From the NCBI GenBank assembly GCA_029964075.1, contig CM057149.1:32570900-32634899 (forward strand): a stretch of DNA of 64,000 nucleotides, in the 5' to 3' direction. The stretch comes from Patiria pectinifera. Its lineage: Eukaryota > Echinodermata > Asteroidea > Valvatida > Asterinidae. Below the pieces are notes generated by a model. The model was not told the origin of the DNA. It searched no databases and saw only the letters and a program-made list of their open reading frames with translations. A program made the translations under genes and the position numbers. Shown here piece after piece: positions 3,328 through 64,000 of the stretch. The stretch's first letter is position 1, and each line of letters begins with the position of its first letter.

Positions 3328-3710
3328 TAAAAGGTAATATACAACATTTTCTTTTGCTGTAATTTTCACGGATGGATTTAGAGGTTAGTGTTTTACAGCA
3401 AATATTGTAACACTGACCTGTTTAAAGGTTTGTGTTCATAGATGCTGGAAAAAAAACAAGAAAAAAAAATGCTGTTCTTGTAGTCTGGTTCCCTGACCCT
3501 ACTTTGACGAAACGGAGCAATTTATAGACGTTGCGAAATTGTCATGTCATTGGAAATTGATACAAAAATTCCACTTTTCTTGAAAATGCAGCACACCAGG
3601 TGCCATGATTTCACAGGATGCTTGAGGCTATTATTCACTTACATTCACTTCATAATAAGTTGGTAATTTTGTTTTTTTGATGTTTGCAAATGTTGTATTA
3701 TTACCTTTAA
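3328..3710. mobile_element. TTAA-family 2 MITE, internally deleted
   Basis: The left end (AAAGGTAATATACAACATTTTC...) and right end (GCAAATGTTGTATTATTACCTTTAA) match the termini of the 514-bp elements at 19520-20033 and 37231-37744. The middle is shorter. The mirror copy starts at about 63917 and is cut by the window end. Confidence 0.65.
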
Positions 3711-4071
3711 GCGTCAAACTGACATATTTATCCAAAATTTGAAATTCCACAATCGTCATCTGACAAGACATCCGTACTTCACCATCAATGATTCTAACAT
3801 CCCAGAACCTGATTTTTGTGACATTTTGCCCACTTTAAGGGAGATTCTAAATCACAAACTTTTGTACACAATTCGTTTCTCGTGCAGTTGAATATAAATG
3901 TGTGTGGCAGTACAATTACAAAATGAATCTGTATTGATGATTTCTTTGAAATGTAATAAAATAGAAAATGCTGATAAGTATAAACAAAGTAGCTGTTGTT
4001 AACTGTTGATATATTGTTTGTTCCTTTTCTTCTGCTTTTTTTTTGGGTGGGGGTGGAATTCTGGCGATTCA

Positions 4072-4404
4072 CAATGCAGTGCGCCACCAAGAGTTTGCCA
4101 TGGAGAGTCCATTTTTCAAGTTTACGGTCGACAAAACATGGCCCATTTGAATGAGTGTCAGTAGACAACTTGAGCTAATTTGTCATAGATTGGGGCATAG
4201 CGTTCTGCCACCTTACAAAAAACACCATATTGATAACAGGAAAAGAAAAGAACAAACAGATACTTGAATCATACGCTTACGAAACTACTGGCCGGAAAAA
4301 CTTACAATTTCAAATGTCCCGCGCTGAGAATTTGTCAACCATTTCCCACAATGCACTGGGAAAAATTACTATCCGTGGCAAACTATTGGTGGCGCACTAC
4401 ATTG
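4072..4404. mobile_element. MITE with ~35-bp inverted ends (left copy)
   Basis: CAATGCAGTGCGCCACCAAG at the left is mirrored by a near match ending CGCACTACATTG at the right, continuing imperfectly through TTTGCCATGG / CCGTGGCAAA. The interior has no credible gene. Shared with the right arm. Confidence 0.7.
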
Positions 4405-5089
4405 TCAATTCAAGCGTCTTCAATTGCAAGCATGTTTTTCCATTTGAGCCATGTATCTACTGGGCAAATAAGCAAAAGAAAAATTGTTGGAACTAACTGA
4501 ACTCTGCCCAGACCTGCGGTAGCTACTGACCAGAAAATCTTAATTTTCAAACAATTAATGCAGGCTTTCAAGCAAACCCAGGTGAATAAGTACAAGAACA
4601 GTAGGATTAGGACTTTGGAGAACAAACTCAGGAGAAAAGTAGGACTTTTGCGGCCTTCCAGGAGTAGTTTTCGTTGATGCTCACCCACGTCCACGGCATC
4701 ATAAGCCTCGTTTGGCATGTTCTGTACTCACAATGAAGATATATGCCTTTGACACTCCTACAATGCACAAACATTGTGACGGTGGCAAATTTACGTGCCC
4801 ATTTTTTTTTTTGAATACCAAAAATACAATAAAAAGAAGACTACCAACTGTGCATCACCGAATTTTTCGAAAATATGAAAATGAAAAAAAATGTAAGCAA
4901 AGTCAGTGCATCCGGACATTTTGAATCAGTTGCTGTTATTGACAAAGTGTACAGAATGTTTGCTTTGCTTTAATGCATTATTCCCAGTACTGCCCAAAAC
5001 GGTGTTGCCTGTTACTCCCTGTACTGCCCTAAACTGCCCATGCACTCCATGGTTTTACGGATTCACCAGGGAATGAATGCAATGTAGTA

Positions 5090-5797
5090 CAGGGTCCAAT
5101 TTCATTGCACTGCTAAGCGCACAATTTTCTGCTAACAGAGCCTCTGTCTATTTCATGGAGACTGTAAGCAGCACGCAAAGCAAAAGACACGCTTACCTCA
5201 GGGGAAAAATTTGCTTATTAGTGACATAACAACAGATATCTCCATGCGCGCTACCGTTAGCACACACACGCCGTGAAGTAGTGCTTCAGGATAGCACATT
5301 TGTGACCTACTGAGGCAAAATGAGGAATGTCCCCCAAAATCTTGTTTCGCGTAATCTACGCCTGAACTCGGATATACTAGGAAAATCAAGACAAAATCGA
5401 TATTGATTGTTTTGTATTTTTGAGTAGCCAAGGTATCCAAGATTCCAAATTTGCATTTTTGTTGGGGAAAAAATACCCACAAAAGTGGACCAACAGAAGA
5501 ACATTTTTCAGTGCCGGTGGTGGCGCAATGCATGTCTTTTTTTCAAAATGACAGTAGCGAAGCTTGGCAGGACATTGTTGAAGTTCCTGCGTCATATCTT
5601 TGGAATAAATTAAGCTACAGAAATAAATTTGGTATCATTGGAAAGCCAATGATTTGCCCTGAAACATGATGTACATAACGTGAAAAGTCAAAGGTGGGAG
5701 TTATTCCTCATTATGCTATGGCAGGTCACATTTGTCTGCTATGCTAAGCACAACTTTTCTGCTAACTGTTAAGTAGTGCTATGAAATTGGGCCCCCG
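5090..5797. mobile_element. GGGCCCAATTTCA-family element, ~0.7 kb (left copy)
   Basis: The left end CAGGGTCCAATTTCATTGCA and right end GTGCTATGAAATTGGGCCCC are inverted repeats that extend inward through GCTAAGC...TTTTCTGCTAAC. It looks like the longer parent of the 22136-22406 element. Interior frames up to 111 aa resemble nothing I know. Just downstream of the TBC1D22 stop, in both arms. Confidence 0.7.
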
Positions 5798-5907
5798 CCC
5801 TAACGGGTAAACTTGTGTAGTTCTATGTCCGTCTGTGAGCAGTTGCTGGTACACAGTACCTTCGCTCGTGTCTCGGTGGATGGGCTGAGGGCTACGGCCG
5901 ACAGACC

Positions 5908-8900
5908 TCATTTCTTGGCCTGTTGGCTCAAGTGCCGGGGTGCGTCTGCAAACATGTACTTGAGGCTATAGGCTTCGGCTAGCAGCAGGCTGATGTCTTG
6001 GTTGGTCCAGCTGGCTGTTGGCAGGTTTTGAAGCAACAGCATGATACCCTAAACGCAGGATTAAAACAGTTTTTGGATTTATTTTCCAAACTCCTTGGTC
6101 GGCCTAGTTAGTTCTGCACTACAGGGTTCCCAGCACTTTATGAAAACAAAATTCCCTGAGTTTTCTCAAAACCGCCACACTCACTGGTTTGATTGGAATC
6201 CTGCTGCTGCACAATTTTAACTTGTTTTTGGGTGGGGTTACGATCGAGTATAAGCTTTATGTGGCCTCTCTAGGCTCCCATATATTTTGCACAATATATA
6301 AGGGAGCAGACTAATGACTAGCCTGGCAGCACATGCACGATGTCGATGTCGCTGTATGGTCTGTCGATACCGTTTTCCCTGATTTTTGTCTTGACTAGTT
6401 CCCAAAGAATGTTCGTGTCGGAAGTGGGCTATTCATAATCACTCTTGGAGGCTGTCTGCATGCACGAGTGCATCTAGAATTATAAAATCCTAGGTGACGG
6501 ATGTAATGCACCTATCAATTGTTTCCAAAATCTAATCGATTTGTACTTGTACCAAGGACCACACTTTAAAAGTTTCTTTTATGAAAATCTGTCGAGAACT
6601 TTTTGAGTTACCCTGTTCACAGACAAACACACTAACCAACCACGACACAAACCAACGCCGGTGTAAACGTAAACCTCCTTGGCGGAGGTAGTATAATAAG
6701 TTGTTCGTTTTTTGCACCATACGCACACAAACCAGTATGAACACGCAGTGTGTTCCTCCCCAAGGGGCTCACCAAAGTGGTTACAAAGCCCCATCTACTA
6801 ATCCTGCACGGAATCCGACAGGCCACAACCTTCACTGTAAGCTGAGAGACTATAGACTGCACGAACATACCTGGAAGTCTTTCTCTTTCATGGCGGCGTC
6901 GGCAAACTTGATGAGGAAGGCAGCACAGACGTAGAGATGGAACACGGCAAAACCCTCGGGTTCACTCTGAAAGGGGAAACAGAAATAACGATGATGAATA
7001 ATTGAAGATGATTATCTCTTTATTTCCTTAACCCTAACCTCACCTAAAGCTACAAAATACTACTGAGAGTAAACTGTAGTATGCAGTACTTTGCCATATA
7101 AGTGGGCAAAGCACTCATAGTATTTTCTGGTATTTGCTACCTGCATACATCATTTTTGTAGTACTATGCAGTGTGTGGTACTTTACTCCAAATTAACTCT
7201 TAGGGGGTTAGGGTTAATAATGACAGTTCTTTTATTAACCCTACTGCTGTCTGAACAGTCACAGACAGTCAAACAAATCAATCCATGGATGGCAAGATTA
7301 CCATATGCGAAGTTCACTAATTTTCCTCTGTATTGACTAACAAGCCCCCAGATAGCAATTTCATGTCATCAAAGTCAATTTGAGCAGTGAGAAAATACAG
7401 GCATTTTCTTAGAAAACACTTAGAATTTTTCAGTCCAATCTCATAGGGTTTGTACACAGGGTGTTGAGTGAACTTCGTATATGGAAATCTTTCCCCACTG
7501 ATCCCCTGCCATGCCTTTATACACAGGCTAGTCAACAGATCATCTTTCTTGTAGACATTGTGACAAATCACATTTTACCAACAGACAAAAGCAAGTAACT
7601 GATAGGCACAGCTGGCTTATCAATCTCGTACAGTCAAAACAAAGCTGTATCAAGTTGCATAACAGTCACAGACAGTCAATCCTGCTTTGTGTAGGCAGGG
7701 GGAACTCAGATAAGAACTGAAATGGGCCCTTAGGGTTGTGGAAATCGCAAAGTGGGTCTCAGTAGGGTTAAAGAAAAAGAAAAACAAGTCAGGTGTGTTT
7801 ACAAACACAAATGCCCTGCAACCGTGACTGTTTCCATGACATACATATACCACCACTCTTTTAACATCAACATACATTTACCTTGGTCACATGGAACATT
7901 CATTGACAGCATTAGTGTCTTCTGTAGGTTTTATATGAATTAATCCCTAATCCCTATGATCTCAGAATAAATACTAGATTTCTATTGTTTTAGCCACGGT
8001 GACCTTGACCTTTGACCTTTTGACCCCAATGCGATAGGCCTATTTGGATTACCAAGAACGATCCACAAACCAAATTTGAAGTTCACATGTAAAGTATATC
8101 TCAAGTTATCACGCTGACAATATTTCTATTGTTTTTGCCACTGTGACCTTGACCCTTGACCTTTTGGCCCCAAATGCAAAGGCTTCTTAGGATTGCCAAG
8201 GACAATCCACAAACCAAATTTGAAGGTTCATATGTAAAGCATTTCTCAAGTTATCGCGCTAACAAAATTTCTATTGTTTCAGCCACTGTGACCTTGACCC
8301 TTGACCTTTCGGCCCCAAATGCAATAGGCTTCTTAGGATTACTAAGAACAATACACAAACCAAATTTGAAGTTCATATGTAAAGTATTTCTCAAGTTATC
8401 GCGCTGACAAAATTTCTTTTGTTTTAGTCACTGTGACCTTGACCCTTGACCTTTTGGCCCCAAATGCGAAAGGCTTCTTAGGATTGCCAAGGACAATCCA
8501 CAAACCAAATTTGAAGTTCATATGTAAAGTATTTCTCAAGTTATCGCGCTGACAAAATTTCTATTGTTTCAGCCACTGTGACCTTGACCCTTGACCTTTC
8601 GGCCCAAAATGCAAAAGGCTTCTTAGGATTACCAAGGACAATCCACAAACCAAATTTGAAGTTCAAGGACAATCCACAAACCAAATTTGAAGTTCATATG
8701 TAAAGTATTTCTCAAGTTATCGCGCTGACAAAATTTCTATTGTTTCAGCCACTGTGACCTTGACCCTTGACCTTTCGGCCCAAAATGCAGAAGGGCTTCT
8801 TAGGATTACCAAGGACAATCCACAAACCAAATTTGAAGTTCATATGTAAAGTATTTCTCAAGCAATCGCGCTGACAAGATTTGTCCGGACACACACACAC

Positions 8901-11900
8901 ACCCACACCCCCACCCACGGAAGGACAAGGCGGAAACAGTATGCCCCTTCGGCTTCGCCGTGGGGCATAAAAAAAGGTACAAATGTATGAAGGCAAATCA
9001 TGAACTCACGCAAAATTTATACTTCCAACAGAATGGGGATTCTGAGGGAACTAACAACTTCAAAAGCATGCATGTACATGTACATTAGGGTGTAGTGAAT
9101 TTCAAGAAAGTAAAGGTTAAATTTAAATAAAAGTTAAGCCCAATGTATACTTCCAACACACTGTGAATTCTTAGGAAACTACCAATTTCACATGCAGAAT
9201 TTGCATTTTGCAGTTTGTAAAGCCTGAAAACACATTTAAACTTTGCCGAAAAATGATTCGCAGCATCCCTTTTGCTTTACACGTATTGGGCATGTGTCAC
9301 ACAGAGTTCAGCTGCTCACCTAGTCTTGGGCCAAGACTGGACTATTTTTCTGTTCCCCTGATGCAGTCGGCCCTATCCTCAGTTAGGGGAACAAAAATCT
9401 AAATCCAGTCTGGGAACAAGACCAATGCTCACCATGTACGTGTCCCAGAGGCGTATTGTTCCTTTCAACGGCAGTTCCCTCATCAGCAAGTTGTTCATCC
9501 ATCGGAAGGCGAACTGAAGATACTCTACTTGGTGGCTGAGTAGATGGTGGTGTAGGGGAGCTGTGGTAAAGGTATGCAAACGCATTACAGGGCGAGTAAA
9601 CAAAAAAGGAAACCCAAATGTCGCCCCCTATTTTTTTTTGTTCTAAAGAAGTTCTGCATGTAGCACTTTACAGATCTCGGATGTGAAAGCCCAATTAATA
9701 AGCTTTCTTTTGGTACAAGAATCATTCATATCGCATATATACTTTTCGAATTATGGACTTCTTAACACAGTTTCAAAATTTTGGCCACGAATCACAATAA
9801 GTGATATTTCAGCAAAACGAAAACCATTTGCATATAAATAACACATCAGAACACTCTCATAACAATGATAACTGGCTCTTATCATAACATTTATTTAAAC
9901 ACACATTGCTTCCAATGTTAGAACAACATGCTTTATAATGTCAAGAGTTAAAAGTCCTGCCCCGCCTTGTACTTGGCCACCCTGGAGACTTATGGGATTA
10001 TTCTGGTATCATTTTCATGATACGAATGGTCACATTTTACTGGAAATCCCATATCTTAAATGTGATGCCGTGGACAAAATTTTAAAAAATGTCTTTGTGT
10101 TGAAAAATTCCTTCAACTAGTTAGGTTTTGAAAGATGCTTCTTTTGATTTTGAGTGGTGTTATTATTGGAAACGAACGTTATGCATGAAAAGCAAATGAT
10201 CCTAATACGCCTCTAACCCCCGACTACGCTTCCTACCGTTGACTCTTTGCACGAGTTCTTTGAGTGAGTTGATTTTGGCCTGAATGCCTGGCTGGGCAAA
10301 GGTGTAGTTGTCCTGGATGCCGTCCAGCAGCTTGCTCATACACCAGAACGTGTCCGCCTCCACCTTGCGTATCTTGTCTGTCGGTAACGTCGTGATGTCA
10401 AAGTTATCTGTAACATCTACATTTTCAGCTGGGAAAAATGTATAAAATAACAACATGTTATACATTTTTGACTGTAAGTTTCCACTCTGGTTGTTTTTCT
10501 AGACTAATGTGGCCCTGGCGTGATTTCTGCCAGCAATGGCTGAGTAGAATTTTAACCCTAACACCCTAGGCCTTTTTGCTAGGATGTAGTCTCAATCCTG
10601 CAAAGTTCTCCAATTGGCCTCGTGGAAAAATAGCATATAGCATCAATCCTGCAAGTTCCTCCATTATTTCTTGAATATGGTCCGTGGAGGGGTGACCACT
10701 GCCTGGATCCTGCCAAATCCTGCCGTAGTGACTGTCAATATGTTAAGGCTCGGCCAGTGACATCCTGGAGCAGTACCGAGGATTTCCAAGCATAATCCAG
10801 GCCTATATTTATGCATGGCTGAGCAAAAACAACACAAGGTCCAGCTCAAGACCTTGACTAAGTGCATCCCACGAAATCAGTAATGCACTTTTGCCATATG
10901 TAACCGCAATCCTCCAAATTCCTCCACCTTGGCAAAGAGGATTTTGAAGGATTCAGGGCGGTTAGGATTAAACAAATGGTTTTAAAAGTAGTTACAGACT
11001 ACTTCGGCGACAGTCATTTTGTGAATTGGCACCAAGCTAGCGCGAGTCGCGCTCAGAAAATACGCACACACTGCGGACTCCTTCAACAAATAGGGTTACC
11101 AAAATACGAGCGCACTTCGTTTTTTAGAACGCGTGCAGCATTCATGTGAGCGTGGTACCACCGCAATAACGGCTTCTAATTCTGGTCGCCAGATTCCGTT
11201 ACACATTTTTGGACAGCCTTCAGCAACCAACCATTCTACAGGTATTAACCCTAGCCCCCCTAGGGTATTTTGGTTAGAAAGCCTGCTAAACACAGCAACA
11301 TGCAATACTTGTCAAAATGACAAGCCTGCCATGTGTAGCAAGATCCATCAGCTCAAAAATCTCAAGGCCAAACTGCCTCAGAGTCTGTAGTTGCCGAACG
11401 CAGCAAGATACAACTGTGGCATTGCTCAATGGCACTAGCTCTCACATTACAAAATTAGCAGTTTATGCACTGGTGTTGATGGCTCAATGCAGCAAGGTCC
11501 CAAAGTCTTTTTACACATGATGCACTGTGCTGCGTCTGGCCAGCTTAGGGTTAATCAACACTGTAACTACAAAATGATCAATTAATCAATCAAGAAATTA
11601 CATATTAACATCCGGCTCTGACAACAGCCTGTCAGGGCACTGTGACACTGATAAAAAAAAACAATGAAATGTGCATTTAAGAATTACCTGTATGTTCGGT
11701 AAGGAATACTACAAAGAAGGGAGTGACTAGATCGTTGATGCCTTGGACATAACCACTGGCTGGATGCCGGATGGCCCAGATGTACAAAATTCGTTCAAAA
11801 ATCTATAAAACAGAATGCAATTGCAGTTGGGCAAAGCACATTTCAATTGGAAATGCCAACGGGGACTTTAACTATTACATATCTGGATTACAAAATTCAA

Positions 11901-14900
11901 TGCAGGAATTAACTAATAAATTGTGGAAAGCAAATTTAAATGAGGTGAAACTCAATTAACCCTAACTCCCTAGGCCTTGTTGCTAGGATGTAGCCTCAAT
12001 CCTGCAAAATCCTCAAATTGGCCTCATGGAAAAATAGCATATAGCCTCAATCCTGCAAATTCCTCCGTTGTTTCTTGAATATGGTCCATGGAGGGGTGAC
12101 CACTGCCTAAATCCTGCAAAATCCTCTGGCTATGACTGTCAATAGGCTGAGGCAGAGGCAGTGACATCCTGGAGCAAATGCGGAGGATGTCAAGTATAAT
12201 CAAGGACTAAATTTATGCACGGCTGAGCATAAACAACACAAGGTCCGGCCCAAGACCTTGACACAGTGCGTACTCCGAAATCAGCAACGCACTTTGGCTA
12301 TGTAACCTCAATCCTGCAAATTCCACCAATTTGCAAAAAGGATTTTGGAGGATTCAGGGCGGTTAGGGTTAAAGGCAACACCTCTTTATAAATTAACTAT
12401 CAAAAATTATTTCCGGGATATAAACAACAAACTCTAGGGTTTAGGGTTTTCAGCAAAACTCAAGCAAGTTTGAATCCTCCAAAATGGCAAAGTCATAGTG
12501 GTGCTATCTTCCTCTGTCCTGCAAAAATTCCTGAACGGATTCTGTTGGATTTTAAAGGGATGTTTTGAGGGTAAGAAGGGTCATTCCGTGTCGATTCATT
12601 ACAATTTTTGACCAAACCCTCACATATTTAAAAGATATTTGGTGTGATGATTGGCCTATATAAGAATCTCCCACAACTAATTTTTTTTGGTGTAAAAATT
12701 TATTACTAAAAAACTTTTAGAGCGCCTATTACAAAATTTTCAAAGATTGATGCTTACATCATAAACTAACAAGTGAAAAAAAAATTACGACATTTGATTA
12801 CTTAATTTTGTAATTCACTGTCAAAAGGCATTTCGTAATGCACTTTCGCTGTACTTCATGCTGCGATTTTTGGTTTTATTTTATGCATTGGAGGCCAATC
12901 AAGAGCTTTTAAAATGACATAAAAGTTGGCTTTGTAGGGGCTTTACTTTTGGAGATAGAAGTATTTAAAGTTCGGAGGTCATGCTAATTAGTCAAAATTT
13001 GTTGACCCGTATCTCAAATACTACTGAGCCACATTACCAAAAAAAAAAAAAAAAATCGGTTCTGGGGGTTTCTCACATCCCTAACCTAGTCTAGAGGCTA
13101 GACGTTTTTATTGTTTGTACGCGATAACCGGCCACGCCGCCGCGATAACCGGCTGCCGCACGAGGGCGCTATCACGACCAACCAATATCGCCCGCGAACC
13201 CGTCAGAACAACGTCTAGATCACTTGCTATTGGTTGTGTAATGCGCGCACCTGTTTGGCCTAATATATGCAGCCTGCAATTTAAAAAATTCATAGTAGTA
13301 CCGAAGCAAACTCTCAAATTTCTTTCAGTAGGTTAAAAGCTGCAGCAAGAGTTCTGTGCAATTTCACTGGTCAGCTCTTTTGTTGTGCGTAGTATGTATG
13401 GGGCTGAAAATGCACCGTAATTGCCTGCAGAAGTCCCGCATGCACAATAATTTCCCCCATTTTTCAGGGGGAGATTTTAGCAAGTGATCTAGAAGTTGTT
13501 AAAATGGATTCACGGGCGATATTGGTTATCGATATTGGCCGGTATCGCTGCGGCGCGGGGGCTATCGCGTACAAACAATAACAACGTCTAGCCTCTAGAC
13601 TATTCCTAACCCTGCTAACGCAACAGACTGCAACAGTGGTAAAAAGTTGTTGCAAGTGGTTGCATTTAGCAGCCAGCTCCAGTCCCCATGCTTTGTTGCA
13701 TCTTGTTGCATTTAGCAGGGTAACTGCTCATAGTGCCAAGGCCAAACAAGAGTATCCACTGTTGCAGTTTGTTGCATTTAGCAGGGTAACTGCTTGGTGC
13801 CAAGGCTGGTATGCACTGGGTTCACAGCGCAATGCAACAGAATCAACTGTTGCAATTTGTTGCGATTTAGCAGGGCACTAATTTGGGTTGAGTTCAAGAA
13901 TACCCTAAGGGGTTAGGTTTGAAGGCCAATCATCACACCAAATATCGTTTCAATCTGTGAGGGTCGGGTGACAAATCATGTTGAATTGACAGGAATTGCC
14001 CAGAGTTATAATAAAATCACAACAGCTCACCTCTTGAACTTTTGGTTGTTGAAACAGTGGTACTAGGGGGTTGGTTCTAGGGATGTCTATGTGAATCTGT
14101 AAACAGGAGTAAACAAATGACATCATTTTCTATTTATAGAAACCTGGACGTTAACATGTTGTAAAATTCTTGCACGTAACTACACAAAAGAAAAAATAAG
14201 AACAGTACATGTACATTTGTACATGCATACGGGAGACAGTCCTAAAGAACATGTACATCCGGAAAATATATGGACTTGGTTAAGTGATTTATACACAATA
14301 CGTGCTTTGAATTATGAGGAAAAATGATGACACAAAGCACTGAGAAAGCATTTTTAAAAGATTTCACTCTAAAATTGTATGGAAACTAAAGGTAGCAAAT
14401 GAAAGCATACTAAAAAGCAATTCCATAGAGAAGTGGACAAGGCTGAAAAATGGAAATGTATTATATCTTCAGATCAACAAGCATTACAACAACAAATGTG
14501 GTATCAAATTAAAGGGGACAATAAGATCTTTCATTTGAGTGGTATGCCAATGTAGTGGAATGAAATGTAGTTAAGTATGTTTTTGGGTCGGGGAAAAAAA
14601 TTGGGTAAAATCACGGATTTTGAGTAGTCATTTTGGCACCTTGTTTTAACATGCAAAATACGAGTGTAACTATGGGTTTCTGTTTTCAAGTCAGAGAGAA
14701 GGGTTCAAATTCTATGCCAAAAGACTTTTTTAAAATTGATTATTACCTTCTTAAATGTTTAAACGTGTACTAAAGATCAGCGGACAAACTGTAACATAAG
14801 TTACTGTAGCGAAAGTTACCACCACTTTACAGCATGTGGCTAAAATCGGCAATGAGATTTCCTGTATTACCCTAGTTACATTGTACCAACAAATATATGG

Positions 14901-50300: not shown

Positions 50301-53300
50301 AATCAAGAATGTTGTTCATTTTTTTGTTTGTCAGGAAGCAAGGAGCTAATTCTCTGCCTTTATTTTGAGCTGCATCTTCTCCATGTTCTCTCTTTCAGAT
50401 CCTCAGGAAACCCCTCCACCCTCCCCCTCATTGCGGTCCGGCGTTCCAGGCCTCGCAGTTAGGCAGAACTCGGACCTGGAGCCTCCTGTTCCTTCCTCCC
50501 CCATCCGAACCAGCCCCATGCCCATGCCCGACAGGGAAGTCGGCAAACTGGCCAAGTTTAAGCAGCTACTGAGTGGCCTTAATACAGAACTAGGTAAGTG
50601 TGGCATTTGTAAAGATATTGATATTTATAGAGTGCAGAGCAGCTCTATAAATTCTACCCAACTTTTTTTTTTAACCCTATTAACCCTAACAGCCCTGAAT
50701 CCTTCAAAATCCTCTTTGCTAAAGTGGAGGACTTTGGAGGTTTGAGGTTACATGTCAAAAGTGCATTACTGATTTCATAGGATGCACTTTTCCAAGGTCT
50801 TGGGCCGGACCTTGTGTTGTTTTTGCTCAGCCATGCATAAGTACAGGGGTGTGAAATCCCAGCTTTAACCCTAACCGCCCTGAATCCTCCAAAATCCTTT
50901 TTGCAAATTGGAGGAATTTGCAGGATTGAGGTTACATGGCAAAAGTGAGTTGCTGATTTCGGAGTACGCACTGTGTCAAGGTCTTGGGCCGAACCTTGTG
51001 TTGTTTATGCTCAGCCGTGCATAAATTTAGTCCTTGATTATACTTGACATCCTCCGCACTGCTCCAGGATGTCACTGCCTCTGCCTCAGCCTATTGACAG
51101 ACATAGCCGCAGGATTTTGCAGGATTCAGGCAGTGGTCATCCCTCCATGAACCATATTCAAGAAAAAGCGGAGCAATTTGCAGGATTGAGGCTATATGCT
51201 ATTTTTCCATGAGGCCAATTGGAGGATTTTGCAGGATTGAGGCTACATCCTAGCAAAAAGGCCTAGGGAGTTAGGGTTAAAGCTGATTTCAGCTCTTTTT
51301 TTTTCAAAGACTAAACACCTGATATTAGGCATTGGAAAATGTATTAGATTTGATTACATAATGTTATCTACCCAAAATGTTATCTGTGAACACCCTTATC
51401 CAAATGCAACATGAAGGCCATGCAATATTTCAAGCACTGCGTAACACATACCAATAACCCAATAATTGTTATATAAAAGCAAATATTAAGTGTGGAAATT
51501 ACATTGTGCAGGTCGAAAAATACATAGCCTTATCAAATCAAAGATATATCTCTGGTTTGCATCGTTGGATTTTTTTGATTTTTTTCACCAATTGTAAACA
51601 AGACCATAGGTTTGAAAATGCTATAAAATTTGATTAGCTAGTTTGACCAACTTGTGAGAAAAAGTCATTTCATCATGCACAATGTTTATTGGGACACAAT
51701 GTAGTAAGGTCAGTTACTGTAAAAATTGAAAGTTCCAGCAAAACGTTTTTTGACTGTTTATCCATAAAAGCTTTTTCCCAACTTTGTTTTTTTTATTGAT
51801 TGATTTCCAGATGACCTTAGAAAGCTTAGCTGGTCAGGAATTTCAGGGGCGGTCCGTCCAACAGCCTGGAAACTTCTATTGGTAAACTCTTACTTTTGTT
51901 GTTTTTTAATTACGAATCTTTTTTTTATGAAGTGGTCACAAAACAAAATCTAACATTCCAGCAATTCCATTAAACCTCATCCTAGGTCCGGGTACAAATG
52001 GAAACATTAGGCCCTACTTGCTTTTTTTGTACGTCGAATTGATAACTGTGAAATTGGTGTGGACTGACTCAGCTAGTGCTGCAGATGAGGAGTCAGGTTG
52101 GCGTAGCGGTACTTTCCTCGCCTTCCACCGCCGTGATCCGGGTTCGAATCCCGCCTGGGCCAATATGTGGATTGATTCCGTGGGTTTTCCCCAGAATATT
52201 CTTCTGGGCTTTTCCTCCCTCCTCTAAAACTGTAACTTCTTCTCGTTGTCTTCTCTCCACAGGTTTCTTCAGGCTTGCGAGCCACAGTGACTAGGGCACT
52301 TTCGAGGAATCCTTGGTTTCATTACCAGAAATTATTAATACTCGTAGTTGTCCATCAAATGATTCCTTACTTTCATTGTTCCCACCAGGGTTATTTACCG
52401 GCCAACACGGACCGACGGGAACTGACGTTAGAGCGGAAACAAGAGGAATATTTTGGTTTTGTTGATCAGTACTACGGCACGAGGACTGATTCATTACACA
52501 AAGATATGTTTAGACAGGTCAGTTCTATTTTCATTTTCTATGCTAGCTTCATTTTTTAGCTTCACCTGTTTACTTTCGGGCAATTCCACGGTAACTTTCA
52601 TTACAGTTTTAGGCACTTTGACATGCACAAAAGAGTCTCACAACTTAATGCATTGGTTTCAAATGTCAGAAGTTTGTTTATTTGAACACTTTACTGTTTG
52701 AACATATTTATGAATACAAAGTGGACAACTTATTATTTTTGTTGGGAGGGGGTGGCAACAGTTTATCCTTTGGTAACTTTCGTTACATGAAAAGGACATG
52801 CATTTATCTCTTGGAGGTCTTTATTCAAAAGTCTCCTTATACTGGACAATGCATTGATAAAAGAAATATATACCATATATTTGTTGGTACAATGTAACTA
52901 GGGTAATACAGGAAATCTCATTGCCGATTTTAGTCACATGCCGTAAAGTGGTGGTAACTTTCACTACAGTAACTTATGTTACAGTTTGTCCGCCGATCTT
53001 TAGTACACGTTTAAACATTTAAGAAGGTAATAATCAATTTTAAAAAAGTCTTTTGGCATAGAATTTGAACCCTTCTCTCTGACTTGAAAACAGAAACCCA
53101 TAGTTACACTCGTATTTTGCATGTTAAAACAAGGTGCCAAAATGACTACTCAAAATCCGTGATTTTACCCAATTTTTTTCCCCGACCCCAAAACATACTT
53201 AACTACATTTCATTCCACTGGCACACCACTCAAATGAAAGGTCTTATTGTCCCCTTTAATTTGATACCACATTAGTAGTTGTGATGCTTGTAGTTCTGAA

Positions 53301-56300
53301 GATATAGTACATTTCCATTTTTCAGCCTTGTCCACATCTCTGTGGAATTGCTTTTTTGTATGCTTCCATTTGCTACCATTAGCTTGTATACAATCTTAGA
53401 TTGAAATCTTTAAAAATGCGTCCTCGGTGCTTGTTTCATCATTTTTCCTCATAATTCAAATCACATATTGTGTCAAAATCACTTAACCAAGTCCATATAT
53501 TTTCCGGATGTACATGTACTTTAGGACTGTCTCCCGTATGCATGTACAAATGTACATGTACTGTTCTTATTTTTTCTTTTGTGTAGTTACGTGCAAGAAT
53601 TCTACAACATTTTTACGTCCAGGTTTCTGTAAATAGAAAATGATGTCATTTGTTTATTCCTGTTTACAGATTCACATAGACATCCCTAGAACCAACCCCC
53701 TAGTACCACTGTTTCAGCAACCAAAAGTTCAAGAGGTGAGCTGTTGTGATTTTATTACAACTCTGGGCCATTCCTGTCAATTCAACATGATTTGTCACCC
53801 GACCCTCACAGATTGAAACGATGTTTGGTGTGATGATTGGCCTTCAAACCTAACCCCTTCGGGTATTCTTGAACTCAACTCAAATGAGTGCCCTGCTAAA
53901 TTGCAACAAATTGCAACAGTTGATTCTGTTGCATTGTGCAGTGAACCCATTGCATACCAGCCTTGGCACCAAGCAGTTACCCTGCTAATGCAACCAAAAT
54001 GCAACAGCCTGGATTCTGTTGCATTGTGCAGTGAACCCAGTGCATACCAGCCTTGGCACCAAACAGTTACCCTGCTAAATGCAACAAACTGCAACAGTGG
54101 ATTCTGTTGCATTGTGCAGTGAACCCAGTGCATACCAGCCTTGGCACCAAACAGTTACCCTGCTAAATGCAACAAACTGCAACAGTGGATTCTGTTGCAT
54201 TGTGCAGTGAACCCAGTGCATACCAGCCTTGGCACTATGAGCATTTACCCTGCTAAATGTAACAAACTGCAACAGTGGATACTCTTGTACCGCCTTGACA
54301 CTATGAGCAGTTACCCTGCTAAATGCAACAAACTGCAACAAAGCATGGGGACTGGAGCTGGCTGCTAAATGCAACAACTTGCAACAACTTTTTACCGCTG
54401 TTGCATTCTGTTGCGTTAGCAGGGTTAGGGATAGTCTAGAGGCTAGACGTTGTTATTGTTTGTACGCGATAGCCCGCCGCACCGCCGCGATTACCGGCCA
54501 ATATCGATAACCAATATCGCCCACGAACCCATCAGAACAACGTCTAGATCGCTTGCTAAAATCTCCCTCTGAAAAATGGGGGAAATTATTGCGCATGCGG
54601 GACTTCTGCAGGCAATTACGGTGCATTTTCAATCCCAAACATACTCTACACAACAAAAGAGCTGACAAGTGAAATTGCACAAAAGTCTTGCTGCAGCTTT
54701 TAACCTACTGAAAGAAATTTGAGATTATGCTTCGGAACTACTATGAATTTTTTTAAATTGCGCGCTGCATATATTAGGCCAAACAGGTGCGCGCATTACA
54801 CAACCAATAGTGATCCAAAGTGATCTAGACGTTGTTCTGACGGGTTTGCAGGCTATATTGGTTGGTCGTGATAGCGCCCTCGTGCGGCGGCCAGTTATCG
54901 CGGCGGCGCAGCGGGTTATCGCGTACAAACAATAACAACGTCTAGCCTCTAGACTAGGTTAGGGATGTGAGAAACCCCCAGAACCGATTTTTTTTTTGGG
55001 TACTGTGGCTCAGTAGTATTTGAGATACGGGTCAACAAATTTTGACTAATTAGCATGACCTCCGAACTTTAAATACTTCTATCTCCAAAAGTAAAGCCCC
55101 TACAAAGCCAACTTTTATGTCATTTTAAAAGGTCTCGAATGGCCTCCAATGCATAAAATAAAACCAAAAATTGCAGCATGAAGTACAGCGAAAGTGCATT
55201 ACAAAATGCCTTTTGACAGTGAATTACAAAAATAAGTAATCAAATGTTGTAATTTTTTGTTCACTTGTTAGTTTATGATGTAAGCATCAATCTTTGAAAA
55301 TTTTGTGATAGGCGCTCTAACAGTTTGTTAGTAATGAATTTTTACACCAAAAAAAATTAGTTGTGGGAGATTCTCATATAGGCCAATCATCACACCAAAT
55401 ATCTTTTAAATATGTGAGGGTTTGGTCAAAATTGTAATGAATCGACACGGAATGACCCTTCTTACCCTCAAAACATCCCTTTAAAATCTAACAGAATCCG
55501 TTCAGGAATTTTTGCAGGACAGAGGAAGATAGCGCTACTATGACTTTGCCATTTTGGAGGATTCAAACTTGCTTGAGTTTTGCTGAAAACCCTAAACTCT
55601 AGAGTTTGTTGTTTATATCCCGGAAATAATTTTTGATAGTTAATTTATAAAGAGGTGTTGCCTTTAACTGAGTTTCACCTCATTTAAATTTGTTATCCAC
55701 AATTTATTATTTAATTCCTGCATTTAATTTTTGTAATCCAGATATATAATAGTTAAAGTCCCCGTTGACATTTCCAATTGAAATGTGCTTTGCCCAACTG
55801 AAATTGAATTCTGTTTTACAGATTTTTGAACGAATTTTGTACATCTGGGCCATCCGGCATCCAGCCAGTGGTTATGTCCAAGGCATCAACGATCTAGTTA
55901 CTCCCTTCTTTGTAGTATTCCTTACCGAACATACAGGTAATTTCTTAAATGCACATTTCGTTGTTTTTAATCAGTGTCACAGTGCCCTGACAGGCTGTTG
56001 TCAGAGCCGGATGTTAATATGTAATTTCTTGATTGATTAATTGATCATTTTGTAGTTACAGTGTTGATTAACTCTAACCTGGCCAGACGCAGCACAGTGC
56101 ATCATGTGTAAAAAGTCTGTGGGACCTTGCTGCATTGAGCCATCAACACCAGTGTATAAATTTGCCAGTGTTGAGACAATGAGAGCTAGTCCCATTGAAC
56201 AATACCACAGTTGTATCCTGCTGCGTTGGGGGACCACAGACTCTGAGGCAGTTTGGCCTCGAGACTTTTGGCCTGATGGATCTTGCTACACTGGGCAGGC

Positions 56301-59300
56301 TTGTCATTTTGACAAGTATTGCATGTTGCTGTGTTTAGCAGGCTTTCTAACCAAAATACCCTAGGGGGGCTAGGGTTAATACCAGGGCCCAATTTCACGG
56401 CGCTGCTAAGCACAAAAATTTGCTTAGCACAAAAAAAGTCTGGCTTGTGAAAGCAGGTTACCAGCCAAAACTCCACGTGATTTTCATGCTAAGCAAACAA
56501 CAGCTGAATACTAATCACGAGCAATATACATCATATGGAGTTTTGGCTGGTAACCTGCTTGTATAAGCCAGTCTTTGTTTGTGCTAAGCAAATTTTTGTG
56601 CTTAGCAGCGCCATGAAATTGGCCCCTGTAGAATGGTTGGTTGCTGAAGGCTGTCCAAAAACGTGTAATGGAATCTGGCGACCAGAATTAGAAGCCGTTA
56701 TTGCGGTGGTACCACGCTCACGGGAATGCTGCATGCGTTCTTAAAAACGAAGTGCGCTCGCATTTTGGTAATCCTATTGGTTGAAGGAGTCCGCAGTGTG
56801 TGCGTATTATCTGAGCGCAACTCCGCTAGCCTGGTGCCACTTCACAAAAAGACTGTCGCCGGAGTAGTCCATAACTACTTTTAAAAACCATTTCTTTAAC
56901 CCTAACCGCCCTGAATCCTTCAAAATCCTCTTTGCCAAGGTGGAGGAATTTGGAGGATTGCGGTTACATATGGCAAAAGTGCGTTACTGATTTTGTGGGA
57001 TGCACTTAGTCAAGGTCTTGAGCTGGACCTTGTGTTGTTTTTGCTCAGCCATGCATAAATATAGGCCTGGATTATGCTTGGAAATCCTCGGTACTGCTCC
57101 AGGATGTCACTGGCCGAGCCTTAACATATTGACAGTCACTACGGCAGGATTTTGCAGGATTCAGGCAGTGGTCACCCCTCCACAGACTATATTCAAGAAA
57201 TAATGGCGGAACTTGTAGGATTGATGCTATATGCTATTTTTCCACGAGGCCAATTGGAGAACTTTGCAGGATTGAGGCTACATCCTAGCAAAAAGGCCTA
57301 GGGTGTTAGGGTTAAAATTCTACTCAGCCGTTGCTGGCAGAAATCACGCCAGGGCCACATTAGTCTAGAAAAACAACCAGTGTGGAAACTTACAGTCAAA
57401 AATGTATAACATGTTGTTATTTTATACATTTTTTTCCCAGCTGAAAATGTAGATGTTACAGATAACTTTGACATCACGACGTTACCGACAGACAAGATAC
57501 GCAAGGTGGAGGCGGACACGTTCTGGTGTATGAGCAAGCTGCTGGACGGCATCCAGGACAACTACACCTTTGCCCAGCCAGGCATTCAGGCCAAAATCAA
57601 CTCACTCAAAGAACTCGTGCAAAGAGTCAACGGTAGGAAGCGTAGTCGGGGGTTAGAGGCGTATTAGGATCATTTGCTTTTCATGCATAACGTTCGTTTC
57701 CAATAATAACACCACTCAAAATCAAAAGAAGCATCTTTCAAAACCTAACTAGTTGAAGGAATTTTTCAACACAAAGACATTTTTTAAAATTTTGTCCACG
57801 GCATCACATTTAAGATATGGGATTTCCAGTAAAATGTGACCATTCGTATCATGAAAATGATACCAGAATAATCCCATAAGTCTCCAGGGTGGCCAAGTAC
57901 AAGGCGGGGCAGGACTTTTAACTCTTGACATTATAAAGCATGTTGTTCTAACATTGGAAGCAATGTGTGTTTAAATAAATGTTATGATAAGAGCCAGTTA
58001 TCATTGTTATGAGAGTGTTCTGATGTGTTATTTATATGCAAATGGTTTTCGTTTTGCTGAAATATCACTTATTGTGATTCGTGGCCAAAATTTTGAAACT
58101 GTGTTAAGAAGTCCATAATTCGAAAAGTATATATGCGATATGAATGATTCTTGTACCAAAAGAAAGCTTATTAATTGGGCTTTCACATCCGAGATCTGTA
58201 AAGTGCTACATGCAGAACTTCTTTAGAACAAAAAAAAAGGGGGCGACATTTGGGTTTCCTTTTTTGTTTACTCGCCCTGTAATGCGTTTGCATACCTTTA
58301 CCACAGCTCCCCTACACCACCATCTACTCAGCCACCAAGTAGAGTATCTTCAGTTCGCCTTCCGATGGATGAACAACTTGCTGATGAGGGAACTGCCGTT
58401 GAAAGGAACAATACGCCTCTGGGACACGTACATGGTGAGCATTGGTCTTGTTCCCAGACTGGATTTAGATTTTTGTTCCCCTAACTGAGGATAGGGCCGA
58501 CTGCATCAGGGGAACAGAAAAATAGTCCAGTCTTGGCCCAAGACTAGGTGAGCAGCTGAACTCTGTGTGACACATGCCCAATACGTGTAAAGCAAAAGGG
58601 ATGCTGCGAATCATTTTTCGGCAAAGTTTAAATGTGTTTTCAGGCTTTACAAACTGCAAAATGCAAATTCTGCATGTGAAATTGGTAGTTTCCTAAGAAT
58701 TCACAGTGTGTTGGAAGTATACATTGGGCTTAACTTTTATTTAAATTTAACCTTTACTTTCTTGAAATTCACTACACCCTAATGTACATGTACATGCATG
58801 CTTTTGAAGTTGTTAGTTCCTCAGAATCCCATTCTGTTGGAAGTATAAATTTTGCGTGAGTTCATGATTTGCCTTCATACATTTGTACCTTTTTTTATGC
58901 CCCACGGCGAAGCCGAAGGGGCATACTGTTTCCGCCTTGTCCTTCCGTGGGTGGGGGTGTGGGTGTGTGTGTGTGTCCGGACAAATCTTGTCAGCGCGAT
59001 TGCTTGAGAAATACTTTACATATGAACTTCAAATTTGGTTTGTGGATTGTCCTTGGTAATCCTAAGAAGCCCTTCTGCATTTTGGGCCGAAAGGTCAAGG
59101 GTCAAGGTCACAGTGGCTGAAACAATAGAAATTTTGTCAGCGCGATAACTTGAGAAATACTTTACATATGAACTTCAAATTTGGTTTGTGGATTGTCCTT
59201 GAACTTCAAATTTGGTTTGTGGATTGTCCTTGGTAATCCTAAGAAGCCTTTTGCATTTTGGGCCGAAAGGTCAAGGGTCAAGGTCACAGTGGCTGAAACA

Positions 59301-61767
59301 ATAGAAATTTTGTCAGCGCGATAACTTGAGAAATACTTTACATATGAACTTCAAATTTGGTTTGTGGATTGTCCTTGGCAATCCTAAGAAGCCTTTCGCA
59401 TTTGGGGCCAAAAGGTCAAGGGTCAAGGTCACAGTGACTAAAACAAAAGAAATTTTGTCAGCGCGATAACTTGAGAAATACTTTACATATGAACTTCAAA
59501 TTTGGTTTGTGTATTGTTCTTAGTAATCCTAAGAAGCCTATTGCATTTGGGGCCGAAAGGTCAAGGGTCAAGGTCACAGTGGCTGAAACAATAGAAATTT
59601 TGTTAGCGCGATAACTTGAGAAATGCTTTACATATGAACCTTCAAATTTGGTTTGTGGATTGTCCTTGGCAATCCTAAGAAGCCTTTTGCATTTGGGGCC
59701 AAAAGGTCAAGGGTCAAGGTCACAGTGGCAAAAACAATAGAAATATTGTCAGCGTGATAACTTGAGATATACTTTACATGTGAACTTCAAATTTGGTTTG
59801 TGGATCGTTCTTGGTAATCCAAATAGGCCTATCGCATTGGGGGTCGAAAGGTCAAGGGTCAAGGTCACAGTGGCTAAAACAATAGAAATCTAGTATTTAT
59901 TCTGAGATCATAGGGATTAGGGATTAATTCATATAAAACCTACAGAAGACACTAATGCTGTCAATGAATGTTCCATGTGACCAAGGTAAATGTATGTTGA
60001 TGTTAAAAGAGTGGTGGTATATGTATGTCATGGAAACAGTCACGGTTGCAGGGCATTTGTGTTTGTAAACACACCTGACTTGTTTTTCTTTTTCTTTAAC
60101 CCTACTGAGACCCACTTTGCGATTTCCACAACCCTAAGGGCCCATTTCAGTTCTTATCTGAGTTCCCCCTGCCTACACAAAGCAGGATTGACTGTCTGTG
60201 ACTGTTATGCAACTTGATACAGCTTTGTTTTGACTGTACGAGATTGATAAGCCAGCTGTGCCTATCAGTTACTTGCTTTTGTCTGTTGGTAAAATGTGAT
60301 TTGTCACAATGTCTACAAGAAAGATGATCTGTTGACTAGCCTGTGTATAAAGGCATGGCAGGGGATCAGTGGGGAAAGATTTCCATATACGAAGTTCACT
60401 CAACACCCTGTGTACAAACCCTATGAGATTGGACTGAAAAATTCTAAGTGTTTTCTAAGAAAATGCCTGTATTTTCTCACTGCTCAAATTGACTTTGATG
60501 ACATGAAATTGCTATCTGGGGGCTTGTTAGTCAATACAGAGGAAAATTAGTGAACTTCGCATATGGTAATCTTGCCATCAGTGGATTGATTTGTTTGACT
60601 GTTTGTGACTGTTCAGACAGCAGTAGGGTTAATAAAAGAACTGTCATTATTAAGGAAATAAAGAGATAATCATCTTCAATTACTCATCATTGTTGTTTCT
60701 GATTTCCCCTTTCAGAGCGAGCCGGAGGGTTTTGCCGTGTTCCATCTCTATGTCTGTGCTGCCTTCCTTATCAAGTTTGCCGACGCCGCCATGAAAGAGA
60801 AAGACTTCCAGGTATGTTCCTGCAGTCTATAGTCTCTCAGCTTACAGTGAAGGTTGTGGCCTATGGGGCTTTGTAGATGGGGCTTTGTAACCACTTTGGT
60901 GAGCCCCTTTGGGAGGAACACACCGCGTGTTCGTACTGGTTTGTGTGCGTATGGTGCAAAAAACAAACAACTTATTATACTACCTCCGCCTAGGAGGTTA
61001 TGTTTACACCGGCGTTGGTTTGTGTCGTGGTTGGTTGGTTAGTGTGTTTGTCTGTGAACAGGGTAACTCAAAAAGTTCTCGACAGATTTTCATAAAAGAA
61101 ACTTTTAAAGTGTGGTCCTTGGTACAAGTACAAATCGATTAGATTTTGGAAACAATTGATTCGTGCATTACATCCGTCACCTAGGATTTTATAATTCCAG
61201 ATGCACTCGTGCATGCAGACAGCCTCCAAGAGTGATTATGAATAGCCCACTACCGACACGAACATTCTTTGGGAACTAGTCAAGACAAAAATCAGAGAAA
61301 ACGGTATCGTCAGACCATACAGCGACATCGACATCGTGCATGTGCTGCCAGGCTGGTCATTAGTCTGCTCCCTTATATATTGTGCAAAATATATGGGAGC
61401 CTAGAGAGGCCACATAAAGCTTATACTCGATCGTAACCCCATCTCAAAACAAGTTAAAATTGTGCAGCAGCAGGATTCCAATCAAACCAGTGAGTGTGGC
61501 GGTTTTGAGAAAACTCAAGGAATTTTGTTTTTATAAAGTGCTGGGAACCCTGTAGTGCAGAACTAACTAGTGCCTACCAAGGAGTTTGGAAAATAAATCC
61601 AAAAACTGTTTTGTTCCTGCGTTTAGGGTATCATGCTGTTGCTTCAAAACCTACCAACAGCCAGCTGGACCAACCAAGACATCAGCCTGCTACTAGCCGA
61701 AGCCTATAGCCTCAAGTACATGTTTGCAGACGCACCCCGGCACTTGAGCCAACAGGCCAAGAAATGA
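47398..61767 (+). CDS. TBC1D22: TBC1 domain family member 22 (Rab GTPase-activating protein), right copy
   Basis: Exons: 47398-47516, 49236-49552, 50399-50593, 51811-51881, 52389-52517, 53670-53735, 55822-55936, 57441-57632, 58307-58434, 60716-60811, 61627-61767 (TGA). Total 1569 nt, 522 aa, all GT/AG. The family's N-terminal block W-K-K...L-P-G-S spans the exon 1/2 junction, which fixes exon 1; its ATG is the first in frame. Residues about 70-125 hold T-S-D-A-W, then a Glu/Gln-rich likely coiled coil; 145-200 are Pro/Ser-rich and variable. The TBC domain runs from about 225 to 470: G-Y-L-P-A-N-T (235-241), IxxDxxR finger (278-284), YxQ finger (317-319), F-W-C-M-S-K-L-L-D-G-I-Q-D-N-Y (about 361-375), R-L-W-D-T-Y near 440. 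Vertebrate TBC1D22 proteins are putative Rab-GAPs linked to the Golgi through ACBD3; that role here is inferred. Neighbours: TECR-like upstream on the same strand, CERK beyond. Confidence 0.95.
47929..48073. repeat. Tandem pair of ~65-bp perfect hairpins, right arm only
   Basis: Two successive inverted repeats, each with arms AGTCTGGTTCCCAGACCAAA... / ...TTTGGTCTGGGAACCAGACT and a short loop (CAGGAATAGTC, CAGGAGTAATC). The stem start is shared with the core hairpin of TTAA-family 2. Confidence 0.85.
48475..48669. mobile_element. CAGGGGTGTGA MITE, 195 bp, right arm only
   Basis: Ends CAGGGGTGTGA and TCACACCCCTG, flanked by AGTTTG on both sides (48469-48474, 48670-48675). The left arm has one AGTTTG (20213-20218, minus). 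The interior is built of 'cagctttaaagctg' and TTTTCAGCTG repeats. The end resembles hAT termini. The same end occurs at 16700-16711. Confidence 0.85.
50869..51276. mobile_element. TTAA-family 1 MITE, right arm only
   Basis: 408 bp between TTAA 50865-50868 and TTAA 51277-51280. The left arm shows the empty site TTAA 16686-16689 between the same flanks (AGCT / AGCTGA). It landed inside an older CAGGGGTGTGA element. TBC1D22 intron 3. Confidence 0.9.
52089..52283 (+). mobile_element. tRNA-derived SINE, family A, intact (right copy)
   Basis: Starts GGAGTCAGGTTGGCGTAGCG (A-box-like), B-box GGGTTCGAATCCCG, then GTGGGTTTTCCCCAGAATAT and a C/T-rich tail. It lies in TBC1D22 intron 4. A third copy is at 35391-35620. 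Confidence 0.8.
53885..54425. repeat. Minisatellite, ~88-bp unit (right allele, long)
   Basis: Five to six units of TTACCCTGCTAAATGCAACA, CAGTGGATTCTGTTGCATTG and CAGTGCATACCAGCCTTGGC. It accounts for most of the length difference between the arms in TBC1D22 intron 6. Confidence 0.8.
54435..54953. mobile_element. Foldback element, TCTAGAGGCTAGACGTT ends (right copy)
   Basis: Mirror of 13090-13599 with the same ends. Confidence 0.8.
56383..56628. mobile_element. GGGCCCAATTTCA-family MITE, 246 bp, right arm only
   Basis: CAGGGCCCAATTTCACGGCG and CGCCATGAAATTGGCCCCTG are the inverted ends. The subterminal TTTGCTTAGCAC and the GAGTTTTGGC / GCCAAAACTC pair make it nearly a full hairpin. The left arm has an empty site near 11241. 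TBC1D22 intron 7. Confidence 0.85.
56900..57311. mobile_element. TTAA-family 1 MITE, shared (right copy)
   Basis: Mirror of 10556-10967, with TTAA at 56896-56899 and 57312-57315. Starts CCCTAACCGCCCTGAATCC. Confidence 0.85.
57664..57755 (+). repeat. Donor-proximal intronic repeat, TBC1D22 intron 8 (right copy)
   Basis: Mirror of 10120-10210, starting 31 bp after the exon 8 donor at 57633. Confidence 0.7.
58900..59895. mobile_element. Tandem ~145-bp repeat element ending in a GC-rich hairpin (right copy)
   Basis: Mirror of 7990-8970 with the same unit number and the same internal duplication. The hairpin is at about 58901-58931. The two copies are nearly identical. Confidence 0.75.
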
Positions 61768-61879
61768 GGTCTGTCAGCCGTAGCCCTCAGCCCATCCACC
61801 GAGACACGAGCCAAGGTACCGTGTACCAGCATCTGCTCACAGACGGACATAAAACTACACAAGTTTACCTGTTAGGGCG

Positions 61880-62580
61880 GGGGCCCAATTTCATAGCCCT
61901 GCTTAACAGTTAGCAGAAAAGTTGTGCTTAGCATAGCAGACAAATGTGACCTGCCATAGCATAATGAGGAATAACCCCCACCTTTGACTTTTCACTTTAT
62001 GTACATCAAAGCGCAAATCATTGGCTTTCCAATGATACCCAATTTATTTCTGAAGCTTAATTTATTCCAAAGATATGACGCAGGAACTTCAACAGTGTCT
62101 TGCCAAGTTTCGCTAACCTCATTTCGAAAAAAAAGAGACTTGCATTCCGCCACCAGCGGCACTGAAAAATGTTCTTCTGTTTGTCCACTTTTGTAGGTAT
62201 TTTTTCCCCAACAAAAATGCAAATTTGGAATCTTGGATACCTTGGCTACTCAAAAATACAAAACAATCAATATCGATTTCGTTTTGATTTTTCTAGCATA
62301 TCCGATTTCAGGCGTCGATTACGTGAAACAAGATTTTGGGGGACATTCCTCATTTTGCCTCAGTAGGTCACAAATGTGCTATCCTTAAGCACTATTTCAT
62401 GGCTTGTGTGTGCTAACAGTAGCGCGCATGGAGATATCTGTTGTTATGTCACTAAGTTAATTTTTCCCCTGAGGTAAGCATGTCTTTTGCTTTGCGTGCT
62501 GCTTACAGTCTCAATGAAATAGACAGAGGCTGTTTTAGCAGAAATTTGTGCGCTTAGCAGTGCCATGAAATTGGACCCTG
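61880..62580. mobile_element. GGGCCCAATTTCA-family element, ~0.7 kb (right copy)
   Basis: Mirror of 5090-5797, starting about 110 bp after the TBC1D22 stop, so it may form part of the 3' UTR. Confidence 0.7.
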
Positions 62581-63270
62581 TACTTCATTGCATTCATTCC
62601 CTGCTGAATCTGTAAAACCATGGAGTGCGTGGGCGGTTTGGGGCGGTACAAGGTGTAACAGGCAGCACCGTTTTGGGCAGTACTAGGAATAATGCCATAA
62701 AGCAATTCATACATTCTGTACACTTTGTTAATAACAGCAACTGATACAAAAATGTCCGGATGCACTGACTTTGCTTGCATTTTTTTTTCATTTTCATATT
62801 TTCGAAAAATTCGGTGATACACAGTTGGTAGTCTTCTTTTTATTGTATTTTGGTATTCAAAAAAAAAAAAAAATGGGCACGTAAATTTGCCACTGTCACA
62901 ATGTTTGTGCATTGTAGGAGTGTCAAAGGCATATATCTTCATTGTGAGTACAGAACATGCCAAACGAGGCTTATGATGCCGTGGACGTGGGTGAGCATCA
63001 ACGAAAACTACTCCTGGAAGGCCGCAAAAGTCCTACTTTTCTCCTGAGTTTGTTCCCTAAAGTCCTAATCCTACTGTTCTTGTACTTATTCACCTGGGTT
63101 TGCTTGAAAGCCTGCATTAATTGTTTGAACAATTAAGATTTTCTGGTCAGTAGCTACCGCAGGTCTGGGCAGAGTTTTATAGTTCCAAAAATTTTTCTTT
63201 CGCTTATTTGCCCAGTAGATACATGGCTCAAATGGAAAAACATGCTTGCAATTGAAGACGCTTGAATTGA

Positions 63271-63596
63271 CAATGTAGTGCGCCACCAATAGTTTGCCAC
63301 GGATAGTCATTTTTCCCAGTGCATTGTGGGAAATGGTTGACAAATTCTCAGCGCGGGACATTTGAAATTGTAAGTTTTTCCGGCCAGTAGTTTCGTAAGC
63401 GTATGATTCAAGTATCTGTTTGTTCTTTTCTTTTCCTGTTATCAATATGGTGTTTTTTGTAAGGTGGCAGAATGCTATGCCCCAATCTATGACAAATTAG
63501 CTCAAGTTGTCTACAGACACTCATTCAAATGTTTTGTTGACCGTAAACTTGAAAAATGGACTCTCCATGGCAAACTCTTGGTGGCGCACTGCATTG
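63271..63596. mobile_element. MITE with ~35-bp inverted ends (right copy)
   Basis: Mirror of 4072-4404: CAATGTAGTGCGCCACC at one end and GGTGGCGCACTGCATTG at the other. Confidence 0.7.
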
Positions 63597-64000
63597 TGAA
63601 TCGCCCGAATTCCACCCCCCACCCAAAAAAAAAAGCAGAAGAAAAGGAACAAACAATATATCAACAGTTAACAACAGCTACTTTGTTTATACTTATCAGC
63701 ATTTTCTATTTTATTACATTTCAAAGAAATCATCAATACAGATTCATTTTGGAATTGTGTACAAAAGTTTGTGATTTAGAATCTCCCTTAAAGTGGGCAA
63801 AATGTCACAAAAATCAGGTTCTGGGATGGTAGAACCATTGATGGTGAAGTACGGATGTCTGGTCAGATGACGGTTGTGGAATTTCAAATTTTGGATAAAT
63901 ATGTCAGTTTGACGCTTAAAGGTAATAATACAACATTTGCTAACATCAAAAAACAAAATTACTAAATGAATGTAAGTCAATAATAGCCTCAAGCATACTG

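Follow-up and report, generated by a model that had tools for sequence, protein, structure and literature searches.

A mirror-image locus on C21 of the Patiria pectinifera assembly is very probably a false haplotype duplication

The genome assembly of the sea star Patiria pectinifera (GCA_029964075.1, 613.5 Mb in 1,020 contigs) contains a locus on C21 (CM057149.1) where coding sequence occurs twice, in opposite orientation, around a run of Ns. It carries two copies each of a Steroid_dh (PF02544) open frame, of two coding pieces that we take to be TBC1D22A-like and of an OATP-family piece, and, beside the gap, part of CERK, the gene for ceramide kinase. We refer to the 64,000 nucleotides of C21:32570900-32634899 as the window and give coordinates in window numbering unless a contig is named. 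The window was examined together with 100 kb of left and 120 kb of right flanking sequence (284 kb in all), and inverted blastn matches of at least 150 bp were chained across the gap. An earlier note on the window had described it as a mirror image starting at 3617, with arms of 24-26 kb, and had proposed that two haplotypes of one locus were scaffolded head to head. Here, we describe the locus and weigh this proposal against its alternatives.

Layout of the mirror

The window holds a single run of Ns, at 29501-30000 and exactly 500 long, and no further run occurs across the 284 kb. When aligned to its reverse complement, the window shows long inverted matches that pair 3614-29445 with 40389-64000, the chain covering 20,623 of the 25,832 bases on the left and 20,739 of the 23,612 on the right. 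The two top-scoring inverted blocks in the window span 4,034 positions at 98.9% identity and 4,229 at 97.0%. With the flanks included, the full chain consists of 42 collinear inverted blocks that join -92907..29445 of the left side to 172018..40389 of the right; its identity is 97.36% over 98,850 aligned positions, and it covers 98,018 of the 122,353 left bases. Its largest block measures 12,097 positions, versus 418 bp for the longest among the 40 best-scoring matches in a chance control, where the 284 kb were compared with a 25-kb contig of the same genome (C342). The single N run and the 42-block chain confirm the mirror image around a 500-N gap. The reported arm length is wrong, as the chain exceeds 120 kb per arm: the mirror is larger than first reported and several times longer than the window shows. 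Position 3617 is merely where the partner leaves the window, and 2,380 of the 3,613 bases of 1-3613 are also paired, with sequence past 63752 that lies mostly beyond the window.

Between the gap and the start of the right arm, the right contig carries 10.4 kb (30001-40388) that has no partner in the left sequence compared (129.5 kb). In a genome-wide search with this stretch, one dispersed repeat filled the matches listed, from which the stretch's own place was absent; the search has no bearing on copy number. A self-inverted repeat of 228 bp (90%), forming a hairpin, lies within it at 37785-38011. By its look, the left contig's terminal stretch presumably resembles the start of a tRNA-derived short interspersed element. 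The features are collected in Table 1.

Table 1. Features of the mirror-image locus (window numbering unless C21 is named)
Feature	Position	Strand	Remark
Left arm, window part	1..29445	+	inverted blocks with 40389-64000 and with the right flank beyond 64000
Terminal 55 bases of left contig	29446..29500	+	unmatched on right arm; homology stops at 29445 / 40389
Assembly gap	29501..30000	.	exactly 500 N; joins two contigs; sole N run in 284 kb
Unpaired end of right contig	30001..40388	.	without partner in 129.5 kb of left sequence
Right arm, window part	40389..64000	-	inverted blocks with left arm
Steroid_dh (PF02544), left copy	26161..27201	-	intact open frame
Steroid_dh, right copy	42701..43741	+	open frame
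First coding piece, left copy	16816..17202	-	presumably TBC1D22A-like; no Pfam match
First coding piece, right copy	50350..50745	+	presumably TBC1D22A-like
Second coding piece, left copy	18778..19167	-	presumably TBC1D22A-like; no Pfam family above cut-off
Second coding piece, right copy	49204..49605	+	presumably TBC1D22A-like
CERK exon, end of PH domain	32394..32516	-	only PH_CERK match in genome
Upstream CERK exon candidate	35818..35959	-	open frame with a GT donor, judged by eye
Tandem array, ~1.67-kb units, right copy	C21:32671417-32687893 (window 100518-116994)

Genes carried on both arms

Over 843 bases, the two Steroid_dh copies differ by 12 nucleotides and one amino acid; of the codon differences, 11 are synonymous and 1 is nonsynonymous. 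The other two coding pieces show synonymous and nonsynonymous codon differences of 1:1 and 2:1. Pfam gave no family above cut-off for them, and a PDB search with one piece returned weak matches only (best nvWRAP-T, E 0.0018), so the name TBC1D22A is tentative. The coding pieces compared stay open in both arms, in agreement with the intact genes noted earlier. The accompanying claim that every gene occurs twice holds for the Steroid_dh, TBC1D22A-like and OATP-family pieces and fails for the PH exon of CERK, which has one match in the genome.

Divergence between the arms

Substitutions, which had been described as scattered, affect 1.62% of aligned bases and are accompanied by 4.7 gap openings per kb within the aligned blocks; with gaps included, the arms diverge by 2.6%. 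Divergence peaks in the 20 kb next to the left contig end, and in 10-kb bins the substitutions fall from 3.8% (10-20 kb from that end) to 0.5% (90-100 kb). There are 28 intervals where a side has at least 150 unaligned bp, and 20 of these intervals are one-sided. One of the 28 holds a tandem array: about 10 copies of a ~1.67-kb unit fill 16.5 kb on the right copy, facing 466 unaligned bases on the left. A long terminal repeat retroelement with terminal repeats 99.9% identical lies in the left flank (L009, C21:32470900-32477582); relatives of it occur on many chromosomes, none of them near the right partner among the matches listed.

Natural chromosomal palindromes, such as those of mammalian sex chromosomes, have a short spacer flanked by two long copies in inverted orientation, and the locus resembles them in this respect. 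Unlike them, its arms are least alike near the centre, where a gap of 500 Ns left by scaffolding takes the place of continuous sequence. Gene conversion homogenises the arms of palindromes to about 99.9%, whereas identity here is 97.4% over the aligned positions and rises to 99-100% in samples farther out. This mosaic divergence suits alleles better than a gene-converted palindrome. Divergence and coding differences also fit an old duplication and are not decisive.

Reach of the mirror beyond the flanks

The outer reach was probed with short samples, some of them trimmed: 15 were fetched and 9 searched (7 right, 2 left), those left out of the search being 32830001, 32850001, 32875001, 32900001, 32960001 and 32150001. 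On the right, C21:32790001 matches the left side at about 32258k (99%) and C21:32812001 at about 32236k (100%, with a further 91% match at 32455k), both in inverted order. Two single-copy samples thereby extend the mirror to about 365 kb on the left side of the join and about 211 kb on its right side. The sample at C21:32840001 continues this inverted order with a 100% match at 32205k; being repetitive, with copies of 97-99% on C7, it carries less weight. For right samples 32930001 and 33000001 no match besides their own place was listed, and samples 32860001 and 32775001 are repeats and uninformative on reach. Left sample 32100001 found its own place only, and left sample 32180001 (160 bases used) its own place and short, weak repeat matches. 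From these short-sample matches and non-matches, the mirror seems to stop somewhere from about 32812k (or 32840k) to 32930k on the right, and from about 32180k to 32236k (or 32205k) on the left.

A repeated family matched by L030:4001-10000 clusters on C21 near 32.22-32.86, 25.2-25.8 and 34.7 Mb, with a local mirror axis near C21:32395.3k. A second gap at this axis was considered, and the adjoining 2,300 bases (C21:32392951-32395250, ending about 50-100 bases before the estimated axis) contain neither N nor an inverted repeat.

CERK is split between two contigs

PH_CERK matches the genome at a single place, 32428-32523 on the minus strand of the right contig, all 4 candidates having been scored. 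The upstream exon candidate in Table 1 is putatively a CERK exon as well. CERK_C has two genome matches (5 of 5 candidates scored), at C342:7170 and on C11, the latter (C11:4566580-4566831) probably being a CERK-like paralogue. C342, a separate and unplaced contig, is exactly 25,000 bases long. It also bears a DAGK_cat exon above cut-off at C342:1619, with 6 DAGK_cat matches in the genome, and its first 200 bases hold, from about C342:70, an exon that matches DAGK_cat weakly (16.3 bits, below the Pfam cut-off). The PH exon closes with ...ERTVKQ and one base of the following codon, and C342 resumes in phase with GNGRPQNLLVFINPYGGK..., so that the exon at the start of C342 appears to be the next one after the PH exon. 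That the PH exon and the C342 exons are consecutive in CERK is our assumption, based on the human protein.

Because the CERK exons continue on C342, this contig is expected beyond 30001 toward lower coordinates, where the scaffold shows the other arm. A role for C342 as an allele overlapping 30001-40388 is rejected: the two share short repeat-like matches only, among the 40 best listed, and C342 is therefore read as the continuation of that stretch. No second allele of C342 appears among the matches listed for its positions 3001-9500 and 23601-25000, which otherwise show repeats. The break of CERK at the join, noted from the window, is thus borne out, with the PH exon on the right contig and later exons on C342.

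Assembly history

According to its published methods, the P. pectinifera assembly was produced by NextDenovo from Nanopore reads with an N50 of 21 kb, followed by Juicer, 3D-DNA v180419 and Juicebox curation (PMC10511450). The same source gives a heterozygosity of 5.16% and, for 615 Mb of assembled sequence, a genome size of 426 Mb estimated from k-mers; its main text names no purging step and contains neither 'purge' nor 'haplotig'. The assembly examined here differs slightly from the published one, C1-C22 totalling 579,089,469 versus 579,098,568 bases (9,099 fewer) and small scaffolds numbering 998 versus 1,458. The arms, at 1.6% substitutions or 2.6% once gaps are counted, diverge by less than the heterozygosity of the species.

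Spacers of 500 bp are reported for another 3D-DNA assembly (PMC8926247). The 500-N gap in the 3D-DNA-built assembly studied here matches that trait, one gap having been seen, and the reading of its round size as a sign of scaffolding gains support. Among 38 small contigs besides C342, 16 measure exactly 25,000 bases and 4 exactly 50,000, a share that is not a random sample, as the contigs were chosen by number and several adjoin C342. Contigs of these lengths look like fragments cut by the misjoin editor of 3D-DNA. We take 25 kb to be its default cutting step, a figure that we did not find in print. What PMC8389630 shows is an altered setting of 100,000, and 3D-DNA is described as tending toward aggressive contig splitting (PMC7957348).

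Comparison with known assembly errors

False duplications are marked by haploid read depth, a gap between the copies on the same scaffold, discordant linked reads and one-copy k-mers, as set out by Ko et al. 2022 (PMC9516828). The gap between copies on one scaffold is found here, at 29501-30000, and substitutions at 1.6% between the arms would yield one-copy k-mers. The locus resembles the false heterotype duplications described there, in which divergent alleles are placed on the same scaffold like paralogues and an assembly gap separates the two. Unlike those cases, its copies are inverted and more than 120 kb long, and it is known from sequence alone; the word 'inverted' is absent from the main text of that paper. 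A further parallel is AaegL5 of Aedes aegypti, where, in the account given in PMC6421076, extensive undercollapsed heterozygosity in Hi-C scaffolds was countered by a merge step. There, too, intervals were repeated with variations on unmerged contigs of the initial Hi-C scaffolds, and the code note names 3D-DNA. In contrast to AaegL5, no merge step is named in the methods text for P. pectinifera (PMC10511450).

Interpretation

What was observed directly is the mirror, the 500-N join, substitutions and insertions between the arms, and a CERK gene divided between the right contig and a 25,000-base contig. We conclude that the mirror is very probably a false haplotype ('heterotype') duplication, an assembly error and not a natural palindrome. 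The head-to-head scaffolding of two haplotypes proposed in the earlier note is supported, and its arguments from the round gap and the broken CERK gene are now stronger. Alleles of one TBC1D22A-like / CERK locus would have been divergent enough to assemble as separate contigs, which the Hi-C scaffolder would then have put on one chromosome in opposite orientations with a 500-N spacer between them. The right contig would extend 10.4 kb deeper into CERK than the left. Each arm should then have half the read depth, and C342, presumably cut out by the 3D-DNA misjoin editor, should abut 30001.

Several observations weigh against a false haplotype duplication. Duplicated BUSCOs amount to only 2.1% (PMC10511450), which argues against common retention of both alleles among genes. 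From the inner to the outer paired stretches, the left side is about 164-173 kb longer than the right, and the arms are therefore not fully collinear; the extra left sequence lies within about C21:32258k-32478k and could reflect sequence missing on the right or an additional duplication on the left. C21:32775001, which lies between the inner and outer paired stretches, is a repeat with no left partner among the matches listed. The outer samples are 99-100% identical, odd for alleles at 5% heterozygosity, with single-copy bases numbering only 737, and the outer ends are unread, hence without a demonstrated gap there. The high outer identity and the low BUSCO duplication would suit a true inverted segmental duplication of several hundred kb, in which the original, on the right, has a complete CERK, the left copy is partial and ends in CERK, C342 sits reversed in the gap and the outer arms are nearly identical. 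Split CERK is by itself compatible with this scenario because the 500 Ns need not reflect the true size of the gap. We nevertheless consider it unlikely: the left contig would have to stop 55 bases past the breakpoint by chance, or because the breakpoint halted assembly, the arms diverge less than the two haplotypes of the species do, and the copies face each other only across a scaffolding gap.

Two other accounts seem to us very improbable. Fold-back Nanopore reads yield inverted copies, and such an artefact of one molecule might have been copied into a contig. However, the arms differ by 1.6% substitutions and by 28 large unaligned intervals, including the 16.5-kb one-sided tandem array, the chain of more than 120 kb per arm is far above the 21-kb read N50, and a gap lies between the arms; we reject the fold-back artefact on account of the separate insertions in the two arms and the length of the chain. 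Alternatively, the animal may have been heterozygous for an inversion, so that the haplotype duplication would be accompanied by a partly real difference in orientation. Allelism by itself leaves the opposite orientation unexplained, but scaffolders can misorient contigs, and the data do not call for an inversion.

Implications

Under a false haplotype duplication, gene counts and duplication analyses on this assembly would err, with the Steroid_dh, TBC1D22A-like and OATP-family pieces doubled and CERK split over two records. Other genes may be cut likewise, given that 20 of the 38 sampled small contigs measure exactly 25,000 or 50,000 bases. The locus is a concrete target for repair and a caution for structural-variant studies that use this reference. 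For the biology of P. pectinifera, the mirror is ordinary and almost certainly not a real genomic feature.

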